Positions 25,141 through 55,327 of a DNA stretch of 64,000 nt are shown piece after piece. The DNA is from Nocardia vinacea (lineage in GTDB: Bacteria; Actinomycetota; Actinomycetes; Mycobacteriales; Mycobacteriaceae), in assembly GCF_035920345.1 (NCBI RefSeq), contig NZ_CP109149.1:310001-374000 (forward strand). Direction: 5' to 3'. Made by a program: the position numbers and the translations under genes. Numbering within the stretch: position 1 is the first letter of the stretch; each line of letters begins with the position of its first letter. The notes beneath the pieces were generated by a model. The model did no database searches. It was not told the origin of the DNA and worked only from the letters and a program-made list of their open reading frames with translations.

Positions 25141-25163
25141 ATACTGACAGATCTTGTCCAAAT
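25141..25163 (-). promoter_or_regulatory. Island operator, copy 1
   Basis: On the minus strand this reads ATTTGGACAAGATC then TGTCAGTAT, an imperfect palindrome GGACA-N5-TGTCA with AT-rich flanks. It lies 110 bp before the acyl-CoA ligase start at 25031. Confidence 0.75.
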
Positions 25164-25455
25164 CAAGACTCGCAACAAGTAGGACAGTCGCTGCGAGGCG
25201 ATCCTCTGACCACTGTAAAAGTCAGAATATGCCCCTGTGTGCCGTGTGGAACGGCCGGAACGACCTGGCCTCCGGTCGGGACGCCGAGGCGATGGATGCG
25301 TGTGTTGCCGAGTTCGGGTGGGGAGTGTTGAGTGACCGAGCTGCGGCATTCAGGGCGCAGGAAGCATCGTCTTCAATGGCGGGTGTGGCTCTTGCTGGAG
25401 GCTGATGTGGGGGTGGTTCGCGGGCTGTCGGGTGGGGTGCGATCGCATCTTTCAA

Positions 25456-25478
25456 ATCTGGACGATCTATGTCAGTAT
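25456..25478 (+). promoter_or_regulatory. Island operator, copy 2
   Basis: ATCTGGACGATCTA then TGTCAGTAT; half-sites GGACG and TGTCA with a 5-bp spacer. It precedes the SDR remnant at 25636 and the intact SDR at 25839. Confidence 0.75.
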
Positions 25479-25635
25479 GGTGGCGGTCACATCATCTGGG
25501 CGACGCCCGGGGCCCGAGTGAGCTGTTCGCGTGTGAAATCCCGTCGCCGACGAGTAGCGGCTCGAGGCCGAGCGTTTCCACGAGGCGGAGCTCGCACCAC
25601 GCCGCCCTGGTTCTATCCGAGAACGGAGCTTCGCA

Positions 25636-25815
25636 TTGGCTGGACGCATCGACGGCAAGGTCGTCTTTATCACTGGCGCCGCACGTGGTCAGGGCCGCGC
25701 CCACGCGATCCGACTCGCCGAGGAGGGAGCGGACATCATCGCCGTGGCCTCGGACGAGGCCCGATTCATCACCGGCGCGGCGATTCCGGTCGACGCCGGC
25801 TGCAACCTTCTCTGA
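25636..25815 (+). pseudogene. SDR gene with large in-frame internal deletion
   Basis: Starting at TTG 25636 the frame encodes [36 protein letters not shown], then directly [17 protein letters not shown] and a stop: 59 codons. The first part matches the start of a mycofactocin-coupled SDR (very close to the gene at 33923), the last part matches the C-terminus of one; about 210 codons with the Ser-Tyr-Lys site are missing without a frameshift. It is followed 23 bp later by an intact paralogue, so the event may have been recombination between tandem copies. Confidence 0.85.
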
Positions 25816-25838
25816 ACCCGACCAAGGAGCACACAGTC

Positions 25839-26678
25839 ATGGGAAAACTCGACGGCAAAGTAGCCTTCATTACCGGCGCAGCGCGCGGTCAGGGTCGCAG
25901 CCACGCGATCCGGCTCGCGCAGGAGGGCGCGGATATCATCGCAGTGGACATCTGCGAAGACATTCCGGGCAGTCCCTATGCGGGAGCGACCGAATCCGAC
26001 CTCGCAGAGACGGTAAAGCAGGTCGAGGCCCTGGATCGCCGCATCGTGGCGAGGAAAGCAGACGTCCGCGATAACGCAGGTCTGAAGACGGTGGTCGACG
26101 AGGGCGTCGAGCAGCTCGGCAGGCTCGACATCGTATGCGGCAATGCCGGAATCGCTGGAATCACCACTCAACCGCAGTCGGTCTGGGAGTTCGACGCCAC
26201 CGCGTGGCAGACGATGATCGACATCAATCTGACCGGGGTGTGGCATACGGCCAAAGTGGCAGTTCCGCACCTGCTGGAGAACAAGGGCGGCTCTATTATT
26301 CTCACCAGCTCGGCGGCGGGTCTGAAGGCGTACGCGAACATTGGGCACTACGTCGCGGCCAAGCACGGCGTGATCGGACTGATGCGGACGCTCGCGTTGG
26401 AACTTGCCCCGCACAGCATCCGGGCCAACGCCGTGAATCCCACCCAGGTCGATACGCCCATGATCCAGAACCAGGCGATGCGCCGTCTGTTCCGCCCTGA
26501 TCTCGAAAACCCGACGAAGGATGATTTCGCGCCGGCTTCCCAAACGCTGCATGCTCTTCCCACTCCCTGGGTGGATTCGGAAGATGTCAGCAATGCCGTC
26601 CTGTTCTTGGCCTCCGACGAGTCCAGATACATCACCGGTGTAGCTCTCCCGGTCGACGCGGGTTCCCTCATCAAATAA
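25839..26678 (+). CDS. Mycofactocin-coupled SDR
   Basis: A 279-residue SDR of the type linked to the redox cofactor mycofactocin: [20 protein letters not shown] and DIIAVDICEDIPG at the start, an extra insert after beta-strand 2, CGNAGIAG, LTSSAAGLKA and HYVAAKHGV for the Tyr/Lys pair. AAGGAG precedes ATG 25839. Members hold NAD tightly and pass electrons to mycofactocin while oxidising alcohols. Here it likely oxidises a secondary alcohol of the island's substrate. A SnoaL-like gene follows. Mycofactocin genes are not in this window. Confidence 0.9.
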   Translation: MGKLDGKVAFITGAARGQGRSHAIRLAQEGADIIAVDICEDIPGSPYAGATESDLAETVKQVEALDRRIVARKADVRDNAGLKTVVDEGVEQLGRLDIVCGNAGIAGITTQPQSVWEFDATAWQTMIDINLTGVWHTAKVAVPHLLENKGGSIILTSSAAGLKAYANIGHYVAAKHGVIGLMRTLALELAPHSIRANAVNPTQVDTPMIQNQAMRRLFRPDLENPTKDDFAPASQTLHALPTPWVDSEDVSNAVLFLASDESRYITGVALPVDAGSLIK

Positions 26679-53344: not shown

Positions 53345-53436
53345 TGTGGATATCGCATTTTCCCACAAGTGGGCAACGTCGACGCGGCAGCTCTCGAGAT
53401 CTTCGAGCTTTGCCGCAGCTGAACAGGCCGCTCCGT

Positions 53437-53655
53437 CTATGGGGCGAGCGTGAACTCTTGCGACAACGCCCGGCAGTCACCGTCGCGACGCGATCGTGAG
53501 ACGAGTCCATCGGCCATGTCGAACGCGTCGGTGGCACGGCCCAACCAAAACATCGCCCGATCCGTGGTGAGTCCGCAGTAACGTACGCTGAGCGGGACGA
53601 ACTCCACTCCCACGTCGACGAGATGACGACCCTTGCGCTCACCTCGCGGGGTCAA
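53437..53655 (-). CDS. Hypothetical small protein overlapping the TetR gene
   Basis: A possible 72-residue protein from TTG 53655, which overlaps the TetR stop codon (TTGA). It reads HLVDVGVEFVPLSVRYCGL, TTDRAMFWLGRATDAFDMAD and ends ALSQEFTLAP. I do not recognise the family. The overlap and protein-like composition support it, but it may also be a remnant of a longer gene. No ribosome site is obvious. Confidence 0.35.
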   Translation of the reverse strand: MTPRGERKGRHLVDVGVEFVPLSVRYCGLTTDRAMFWLGRATDAFDMADGLVSRSRRDGDCRALSQEFTLAP

Positions 53656-54281
53656 GACGACGGGGTGTCTTCGGGGGAGGGACTTCGATAGTCCACGCCT
53701 CGTAACACGGTGTCCACGAGTTGTGTCAAATAACTCTCTGTGTGGGCGATCTTGGCCAGTCCCGCAGGTGTGCTGCGGACGTGGGTGGTGATCGCACCTG
53801 CGACGAGATCGGCGATGAGGGTGGGGGTGATGCCGGGGTCGATCTCGCCACGCTCGACCGCGCGCCGGACCAGGGCTCGGGTCGCGCGAATGTAGTCCGG
53901 ATAGTCGAGTTCACCGATGACCTCCGCCAGCTCCTTGTTGGACTGCCGGTCCATCAAAAGGCGGCTGGTCATCAATCCTTCGATGCTCTGCGCGAACGCC
54001 ATCCACTGCCTGGCGAACTCCCGGAGGTCCAGCTCGAGGTTGCCGAGGTTGATGTTTCCGACCGATGGGGCGGCCGAGCGAACCGCGTCGACCAGCAACG
54101 CCGCCTTGTTGGGCCAGCGTAGGTAAAGTGAACCCTTACCCACACCGGCTCGTTTTGCGACTTCGTCCACGGTGAAACCGCTCCATCCGCGGTCGCCGTA
54201 CACCGTCCGAGCGGCATCCAGGACTCGCTCGTCCAAATTGGGTACCCGTGGTCGTCCGACGGCGCGCGACGATGACGTCAT
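53652..54281 (-). CDS. TetR-family regulator, candidate for the island operator
   Basis: A 209-residue TetR protein: ARTVYGDRGWSGFTVDEVAK and RAGVGKGSLYLRWPNKAALL form the helix-turn-helix, followed by the TetR_C_16-like helical domain (RLLMDRQSNKELAEVIGEL). It is divergent from the crotonase at 54459. It lies in the middle of operator copies 6, 7 and 8, and a degenerate copy (54363-54388) is in its own promoter region. This makes it the best local candidate for the regulator of the 23-bp sites. Start 54281 or 54293; neither has a good ribosome site. Confidence 0.85.
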   Translation of the reverse strand: MTSSSRAVGRPRVPNLDERVLDAARTVYGDRGWSGFTVDEVAKRAGVGKGSLYLRWPNKAALLVDAVRSAAPSVGNINLGNLELDLREFARQWMAFAQSIEGLMTSRLLMDRQSNKELAEVIGELDYPDYIRATRALVRRAVERGEIDPGITPTLIADLVAGAITTHVRSTPAGLAKIAHTESYLTQLVDTVLRGVDYRSPSPEDTPSS

Positions 54282-54458
54282 AGCTTGCACCATACCGTGA
54301 TTCGCGGTGATGGCGAAGCCGTCCGCTCAGCCCCATGCGGCGATCGCAGGCGCGCGGGGTATATTTCCGATAAGTTTCGTCCAGAATAGGCTGATGTCGG
54401 GTTTTGGCCCTCCAGCCCCACCGACTTATGCGAAAGCCACCTATCGAGAGGCAGTCTT

Positions 54459-55259
54459 ATGGCCCAGCCGAACAGTCCGACGTCGAGCCAACTGGAAGTC
54501 GAGCAGGTCGACGGAGTCCTCACTCTGACCATGAACAGGCCCGCAGTGCGGAACGCGCTCGATGCCGAGCAGTGGCGTCGTCTTGCTTCCGCGCTCGGGG
54601 ACGCGAAGCACGATACGAGCGTGCGTGCGGTGGTTCTGACAGGTGCTGGCGGGGTGTTCTCCTCCGGCGGTCAGTTGGGAGCTGACGGTCCGGCGCATCC
54701 GCTGGACCGCATGCGGATAATCTCCGCCACGGCGGTGGCACTGCACGACTTTCCGAAGCCGACGATCGCGAAGGTGTCGGGCCCGGCGATCGGGGGCGGA
54801 TGGAACCTCGCGTTGTGCTGCGATTTCGTCATCTGCTCGAGTAACGCTACGTTCGCGCAGGTCTTTCCGCGGCGGGGGTTGTCCGTCGACGTTGGCGGTT
54901 CGTGGCTTCTGCCGCGTCTGATCGGGATGCAGAAGGCGAAGTTGTTGATGATGACCGGCGATCTTCTCGGCGCGGCCGAGGTGGAACGATTGGGGCTGGC
55001 CACCCAGGTGGTCGAGCCCGAAGAGCTCGATTCTGTCGTCGAGTCGCTCGCCGCGCGCCTGGCGGCCGGTCCGCCGGTCGCGCTGTCGTTGACCAAGTCT
55101 CTCCTGCACCAGGCGGCGGGCGCGGATTTCGCAAGCAGTCTCGAGGCGGAGGCGATCGCGCAAGCAGTGAACTTCGCCGGCGAGGACATCGAGATCGGCA
55201 TGAAAGCCTTCAAAGCCAGAACGGCGCCGTCTTTCACGGGGCGTTGGTACTCGGAGTAG
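54459..55259 (+). CDS. Enoyl-CoA hydratase/isomerase (PaaG-like)
   Basis: A 266-residue crotonase: VVLTGAGGVFSSGGQLG and SGPAIGGGWNLALCCDFVIC form the oxyanion hole, and FPRRGLSVDVGGSWLLPRLI has Asp in place of the second Glu and no first Glu, as in PaaG-type isomerases (GLVPDSGGTW). A double-bond shift or ring-epoxide isomerisation is more likely than hydration. It starts at ATG 54459, is divergent from the TetR gene, and shows no close copy of the strong operator. Confidence 0.88.
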   Translation: MAQPNSPTSSQLEVEQVDGVLTLTMNRPAVRNALDAEQWRRLASALGDAKHDTSVRAVVLTGAGGVFSSGGQLGADGPAHPLDRMRIISATAVALHDFPKPTIAKVSGPAIGGGWNLALCCDFVICSSNATFAQVFPRRGLSVDVGGSWLLPRLIGMQKAKLLMMTGDLLGAAEVERLGLATQVVEPEELDSVVESLAARLAAGPPVALSLTKSLLHQAAGADFASSLEAEAIAQAVNFAGEDIEIGMKAFKARTAPSFTGRWYSE

Positions 55260-55304
55260 AGCGCCGGGTGGCGGATTCCCAGCAGATGAGCCAATCACTT
55301 CCTA

Positions 55305-55327
55305 ATTTGGACTAAATATGTCAGTAT
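55305..55327 (+). promoter_or_regulatory. Island operator, copy 8
   Basis: ATTTGGACTAAATA then TGTCAGTAT; half-sites GGACT and TGTCA, 5-bp spacer. It lies 160 bp before the crotonase start at 55487, in the same orientation as copies 2 and 5. Confidence 0.78.

Follow-up and report, generated by a model that had tools for sequence, protein, structure and literature searches.

The window, a 64-kb stretch of the Nocardia vinacea genome (contig NZ_CP109149.1), carries a 30-kb catabolic island, whose genes are predicted to degrade rings and acids, together with eight copies of a 23-bp palindromic element that we propose to be the operators of TetR53, a TetR-type regulator encoded in the same stretch. 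The genes associated with these sites encode coenzyme A (CoA) ligases, short-chain dehydrogenases/reductases (SDR), a Baeyer-Villiger monooxygenase (BVMO), a cocaine-esterase-type hydrolase, crotonases, a lipid-transfer-type thiolase with its OB-fold partner and a SnoaL-like protein. The positions given for the eight sites in the initial annotation were borne out by direct reading, and all of the sites were non-coding, lying outside the 13 neighbouring genes (gene starts as set in the analysis). Seven of the eight sites had been placed 35-160 bp before a gene or remnant; six sites are located 34-159 bp from the likely start codon (Table 1), and two are more distant from it. Site 36549 lies about 336-351 bp from the likely start of its gene, and site 25456 lies 360 bp from the start of an intact SDR gene because an SDR remnant, 158 bp away (hand count), intervenes. 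This short remnant (25636-25815, plus strand), situated between operator 2 and the SDR gene at 25839, consists of an N-terminal Rossmann part fused to a C-terminal end. Two sites (52404 and 53322) are oriented away from the gene downstream of them.

The pattern GGAC-N7-GTCAGTAT, common to all eight sites, has eight exact matches within the window. When up to two mismatches were allowed, 13 matches were obtained in the window versus 3.4 expected, and none of 100 shuffles reached this number (maximum 9). The operator takes the form ATNTGGAC-N7-GTCAGTAT with close variants, the left arm being mostly ATTTGGAC, ATATGGAC or ATCTGGAC and the right arm GTCAGTAT (reverse complement ATACTGAC). A palindrome is present, as had been claimed for the 23-mer, although it is imperfect: in the window's sites, symmetry extends to 4-6 of the 8 arm positions. 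Two details of the original consensus have to be corrected: bases other than A or G can follow GGAC (T at 55305), and the T ahead of GTCAGTAT is missing in two of the eight sites (52404, 53322).

In the whole 10.36-Mb genome, the extended pattern TNKGGAC-N7-GTCAGTAT has eight exact matches, every one inside the window; therefore, the exact sites are confined to the island. The motif is thus not placed at random across the genome, and the extra sites that had been anticipated elsewhere did not appear in the whole-genome scan as exact matches. Two one-mismatch matches were found genome-wide, both outside the window, and up to two mismatches gave 49 matches versus 32 for the pattern read backwards.

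Among 301 sampled genomes of the family, including that of N. vinacea, the exact pattern was detected in six. Two of the others (G022 and G278) have six matches each and carry the gene set of the window (matches of up to 45% identity were left out of this comparison), and the single matches in three further genomes (G001, G052 and G243) were taken as chance. A scan for TetR53 homologues covering one genome per species (84,980 species), based on a TetR alignment and two peptide patterns from the helix-turn-helix (HTH) region, yielded 30 loci, including those of N. wallacei (TetR identity 95%), Geodermatophilus sabuli (90%), N. carnea, N. fusca and a Rhodococcus metagenome-assembled genome (MAG). 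Genes and sites were mapped in seven island genomes, namely the window, two N. carnea genomes, N. fusca, N. wallacei, G. sabuli and the Rhodococcus MAG, with overlapping tblastn matches collapsed. A position weight matrix (PWM) trained on the window, G022 and G278 identified 50 sites with a score of at least 20 across these genomes of Nocardia, Rhodococcus and Geodermatophilus: eight in the window, seven and six in N. carnea, seven in N. fusca, six in N. wallacei, nine in G. sabuli and seven in the MAG, the counts for N. wallacei, N. fusca and G. sabuli being out of sample. The sites recur at matching promoters, including where the gene order is changed. A site was read upstream of SDR52, and likewise of SDR33 or a relative, in all seven genomes; the ligase operon has one ahead of its first crotonase gene in six genomes, and the thiolase operon ahead of its crotonase gene in five. 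When spacers of N3 to N11 were tried in 420 kb of the seven genomes, 43 of the 44 matches had N7 and one had N6, with no matches at N3-5 or N8-11. G. sabuli has two crotonase gene copies (L107:14670 and L108:11917), each 90% identical to that of the window and with identical operators and flanks, which suggests a recent duplication.

Seven regulators encoded in the window were compared, and only TetR53 and AraC38 were conserved throughout the seven genomes in the island stretches retrieved. TetR53 matches both PF00440 and PF16859 above the Pfam cut-off. Its predicted structure is an all-helical TetR fold (mean pLDDT, the predicted local distance difference test, 83.8), and its ten best solved-structure matches are all TetR-type regulators. 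No close paralogue was found in the N. vinacea genome, the next protein by E-value being 32% identical (150 of 227 candidates scored). The intergenic region between the divergent TetR53 and crotonase genes contains a degenerate copy of the operator. Its score is 7.6 in the window, and six of seven close relatives have a site scoring 11.9-17.4 at the corresponding position. The arrangement at 54364 fits a weak autoregulation of TetR53.

The relationship between regulator and palindrome extends beyond the island. We collected 22 divergent loci (TetR identity 37-56%), comprising the plasmid locus L054 (46%) and L062-L082, with the close orthologues L055-L061 left out. A strict palindrome, TW...GAC-N7-GTC...WA, was located within 250 bp of the TetR gene in 18 of them, upstream of the regulator gene in 15 and only downstream in three. 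In these 22 loci, 19 copies were counted in 10.9 kb near the TetR gene versus 3 in 369 kb farther away, and palindromes with spacings of 3-6 or 8-11 were absent near the gene. Examples of the homologue palindromes are TTACGGAC-N7-GTCGTAAA (N. cyriacigeorgica type) and TTACAGAC-N7-GTCCGCAA (Rhodococcus type), and in five N. cyriacigeorgica genomes the arms are fixed and the spacer varies. None of the 22 loci contains the island. Six share no island gene except the regulator at an E-value of 1e-20. In the remaining 16, between one and a few scattered genes of enzyme families or transporters match at 26-62% identity, most strongly a thiolase (62%; L054, L074) and a crotonase (53-56%; seven Rhodococcus loci). 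AraC38 was seen in none of the 22 loci within the fetched stretches. The constant spacing and the TetR-type regulator suggested by the initial annotation fit the prevalence of N7 and the palindromes linked to TetR53 homologues. From these sequence comparisons, we strongly favour the reading that the eight 23-mers are operators of TetR53, which would act as a dimeric repressor of the island genes until a pathway compound releases it.

AraC38, which is present in all seven island genomes and is 77-93% identical in the six others, would be the other candidate. If it bound the 23-mers and activated the island, the consistently unequal half-sites could be explained as the asymmetry of an AraC site. 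However, AraC38 goes with a different element, and it was rejected as the regulator of the 23-mers. This element, AGCGAATGTGAGC, is located upstream of the luciferase-like monooxygenase (LLM) operon and is distinct from the 23-mers; two genomes have AraC38 and the LLM genes apart, and there it lies upstream of both (N. fusca, L104:2431 and L105:8293; Rhodococcus MAG, L050:4814 and L051:2143), and in G. sabuli it is present in altered form. Moreover, palindromes with the same core adjoin TetR53 homologues in six genomes of the divergent set that were searched whole and contain no AraC38 orthologue, the best matches by E-value being 30-34% identical (E at least 2.5e-20) and one genome giving no match at all. 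As the divergent TetR homologues carry the palindrome without AraC38, and AraC38 goes with another element, we assign the 23-mers to TetR53 and consider control by AraC38 unlikely. The sequence context makes AGCGAATGTGAGC the likely AraC38 site controlling the LLM operon, an assignment made more tentatively than that of TetR53. The LLM monooxygenase/flavin operon has no 23-mer upstream in the window, the nearest being more than 3 kb away. This run (39689-45661, plus strand) encodes an LLM monooxygenase, a cupin, a lyase resembling phosphoenolpyruvate mutase, an SDR, a flavin reductase and a full RibBA, so that the operon apparently provides for its own flavin. In the Rhodococcus MAG, a second AraC relative, about 41% identical and interrupted by stops (L050:5096-5635), lies beside the LLM operon.

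The window holds two further TetR genes (TetR62, 62328-62930, and TetR12, 12720-13373) as well as XRE, GntR and PadR regulators, and the comparison covered seven regulators, all of them from the window. That one of these proteins, or one from outside the island, binds the sites is nevertheless very unlikely: TetR62, TetR12, XRE and PadR gave partial or 29-41% matches at most in the fetched island stretches, a GntR orthologue occurs in N. fusca only, and the family palindrome accompanies TetR53 homologues. The five compared regulators other than TetR53 and AraC38 were set aside as not conserved in these stretches. Alternatively, the 23-mers could be shared promoter elements for RNA polymerase with a special sigma factor, acting without any dimeric regulator, as the flanks of forward sites are partly conserved and TATNNT, which resembles a -10 box, closes the right half; but the sites are palindromic, occur in both orientations to genes (eight reversed) and share their core with palindromes adjoining TetR genes in other genera, which renders this explanation highly improbable. 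It is barely conceivable that the copies are remnants of a dispersed repeat or mobile element devoid of a regulatory role. Eight copies within about 30 kb might suggest such an origin, but conservation is limited to the arms, the 7-bp spacer and most of the flanking sequence varying from copy to copy, and all eight are non-coding, lie upstream of genes and recur at corresponding promoters in other genera. No sign was obtained of the transposable repeat that the initial annotation had named as a refuting outcome.

The position of the sites relative to the promoters suggests how TetR53 would act. There are 37 unique forward sites, forward being the default class, and eight reversed ones, which were assigned by hand; the Rh418 copy of one site, identical in sequence to that in Rh333, was dropped. 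TATNNT is found at the gene-proximal end of 23 of the 37 forward sites, and T is the sixth base in 26 of the 37 (binomial p of 5e-11 versus an assumed 0.2, a value overstated since the sites are related). Thus, an overlap between operator and -10 box is likely, as is repression by TetR53. Forward sites also show a conserved GTCACRT 4 bp past TATNNT, at which the transcript could begin, and a partly conserved TTCC before the site. In N. wallacei, the reversed SDR52 site has TAT at its gene-proximal end and the family-type TTAC at its distal end. A sigma-70 -35/-10 pair inside the operator was considered and discarded, as the gap between TTGGAC and TATGAT is 12 bp (counted by eye), so no -35 box was assigned. 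In our proposal, the gene-proximal half of the operator would also serve as the -10 box, and a bound TetR53 dimer would block RNA polymerase, by analogy with the mechanism proposed for KstR and EdcR. The inducer that releases TetR53 from DNA would be a compound of the pathway; the neighbouring genes make a CoA thioester or a ketone probable. Upon release, the site-bearing operons would be switched on together; the degenerate intergenic site would confer weaker autoregulation on TetR53. The island would then have two switches, TetR53 for the 23-mer promoters and AraC38 for the LLM operon.

Several observations weigh against this interpretation. The inequality of the half-sites goes beyond what a symmetric dimer requires. 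Some sites of the forward class have no verified downstream gene, no -35 box was found for the operator-borne promoters, and the reversed sites keep TAT in six of eight cases but the sixth-base T in only one, so that a -10 box is not evident there. The own-promoter site of TetR53 is degenerate, with a score of just 7.6 in the window, and L057 has none in its 4.1-kb piece; the SnoaL-gene site (52404) lacks a counterpart in the mapped relatives. The strict palindrome was not found in four of the 22 divergent loci (L066, L072, L073 and L080, the last of which has a relaxed version), nor in L083 and L084, the most divergent homologues (30-34%), which stand outside the 22. These loci are also non-independent, comprising eight from Rhodococcus/Rhodococcoides (one on a plasmid), seven from Saccharopolyspora, five from N. 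cyriacigeorgica and two from Frankiales; 21 of them came from the HTH-peptide scan, which is biased to similar DNA-binding heads, and the strict pattern was set after some of the loci had been inspected. L057 itself, a contig of the Rhodococcus MAG, carries a second TetR53-type gene (86%) beside thiolase, SDR and SnoaL genes.

A parallel exists in the proteobacterium Caenibius tardaugens. Its EdcR is a repressor with TetR_N and TetR_C_11 domains encoded within the catabolic cluster that it controls (PMC8700777). Like TetR53, EdcR is a TetR_C_11 regulator located in its own catabolic cluster; its palindromic operator lies over a predicted -10 box and has a weaker copy at its own promoter, an arrangement that is also proposed for TetR53. 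Unlike here, its operator is TnnCnnTACnAnTnGTAnnGnnA, with TAC-N5-GTA instead of the GAC-N7-GTC present in all eight sites, and it governs an estrogen pathway through four promoters, against eight sites in the island (PMC8700777). KstR is an actinobacterial TetR repressor of lipid-degradation genes whose motif lies partly over the -10 region, a location near the -10 box that is likewise proposed for TetR53, but this motif, TnnAACnnGTTnnA, has a 2-bp centre and its sites occur at many separate places in the genome (PMC1995591). The initial view that the motif differs from that of KstR proved justified, as none of the eight sites as read shows TnnAACnnGTTnnA, and TetR53 scores 20 bits with the KstR model NF033703 against a cut-off of 280. 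BkaR similarly is a TetR repressor that controls its own gene and a keto-acid/CoA operon next to it, but the eight sites do not match its motif, GTTA(N)T(N4)A(N)TAAC (PMC3920632). The operator of RisR from Myxococcus xanthus, T(t/g)GAC-N7-GTCC with AT-rich flanks, has the same core and spacing, whereas RisR is an Rrf2-family iron-sulphur regulator of isc/suf (PMC9973013). No Rrf2 family was present among the Pfam matches of the scanned window proteins (part of the open reading frames, ORFs), and the resemblance of the operators is likely convergent. Among the matches listed in text searches of the literature, with most subscription journals outside their coverage, no other report described the operator. 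Local TetR regulons are well known; what is new is the regulon, the regulator assignment and the operator proposed to be common to the TetR53 clade.

A broader proposal, on which we remain evenly divided, is that one entire clade of TetR_C_11-like repressors in actinobacteria, down to 37% identity and in varied neighbourhoods, would share the unreported code TTACnGAC-N7-GTCnGTAA. This code would have been rebuilt at up to nine sites in a horizontally spread island, one half doubling as the -10 box, and an AraC-type second switch with its own element would separately control a flavin monooxygenase that may start the pathway.

With regard to the enzymes, searches of the BVMO, the esterase and others against solved structures pointed to relatives of phenylacetone/steroid monooxygenase, cocaine esterase, 6-oxocamphor hydrolase and the RutA/SfnG type. 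The best solved relatives of the crotonase at 48334-49155 are the ALR4455 beta-diketone hydrolase and 6-oxocamphor hydrolase (170-180 bits), the next one scoring 77. These assignments lead us to infer an order in which an alcohol would be converted to a ketone, followed by oxygen insertion, ester hydrolysis and then retro-Claisen and CoA-dependent steps. The protein encoded at 35448-36212 (minus strand), which has its own operator in the window and in N. wallacei, begins with what looks by eye like a signal peptide and matches no Pfam family at 1e-5. A second CocE/NonD-type hydrolase (15411-17234, plus strand), with SDR and F420-oxidoreductase neighbours, lies outside the site-bearing stretch.

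Table 1. Operators, regulators and predicted target genes in the window (distances are from site to likely start codon)
Feature	Position	Strand	Remarks
Operator 1	25141..25163	-	Upstream of CoA ligase 23400-25031 (-); GTG start 25031, 109 bp
Operator 2	25456..25478	+	Upstream of SDR remnant, then intact SDR 25839-26678 (+)
Operator 3	34886..34908	-	Upstream of SDR-CocE-BVMO operon; 144 bp to ATG 34741
Operator 4	36549..36571	-	Upstream of possibly secreted protein 35448-36212 (-); N. wallacei orthologue also preceded by a site
Operator 5	45706..45728	+	Upstream of crotonase-ligase-diketone hydrolase-SDR run; 145 bp to ATG 45874
Operator 6	52404..52426	+	Upstream of SnoaL-like gene 51929-52369 (-), reversed; 34 bp to ATG 52369
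Operator 7	53322..53344	+	Upstream of SDR 52497-53258 (-), reversed; 63 bp to ATG 53258
Operator 8	55305..55327	+	Upstream of crotonase-thiolase-OB-fold operon; 159 bp to ATG 55487
Degenerate operator, TetR/crotonase divergent intergenic region	54364..54386	-	TTCTGGAC-N7-ATCGGAAA; PWM score 7.6
TetR53, proposed cognate repressor	53652..54293	-	TetR_N and TetR_C_11 (Pfam); homologue-linked palindromes; predicted fold
AraC38, proposed regulator of LLM monooxygenase operon	38189..39238	-	Arabinose_bd and HTH_18 (Pfam)
Separate conserved element AGCGAATGTGAGC	39496..39508	+	Between AraC38 and LLM monooxygenase operon
Acyl-CoA ligase, predicted target	23400..25031	-	
SDR, predicted target	25839..26678	+	
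BVMO, phenylacetone/steroid monooxygenase type, predicted target operon	30490..32115	-	
CocE/NonD esterase, predicted target operon	32137..34008	-	ORF limits, real start probably later
SDR33, first gene of SDR-CocE-BVMO predicted target operon	33923..34741	-	
Crotonase, predicted target operon	45874..46674	+	
Acyl-CoA ligase, predicted target operon	46323..48308	+	ORF limits, real start probably later
6-Oxocamphor hydrolase / beta-diketone hydrolase-like crotonase, predicted target operon	48334..49155	+	
SnoaL-like protein, predicted target	51929..52369	-	
SDR52, predicted target	52497..53258	-	
Crotonase, predicted target operon	55487..56323	+	
Lipid-transfer-type thiolase, predicted target operon	56215..57492	+	ORF limits
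ChsH2-type OB-fold (DUF35) protein, predicted target operon	57489..57944	+	

With these assignments, the 30-kb catabolic island can be described as a regulon for which a candidate regulator, the operator and the target genes are named. Membership of the regulon marks the SDR, BVMO, esterase, CoA ligase, diketone hydrolase and thiolase/OB-fold genes as parts of a single pathway, which aids the search for its substrate. The operator code would also extend to the relatives of TetR53 in Saccharopolyspora, Rhodococcus, Frankiales and other Nocardia, where it would allow targets to be predicted.

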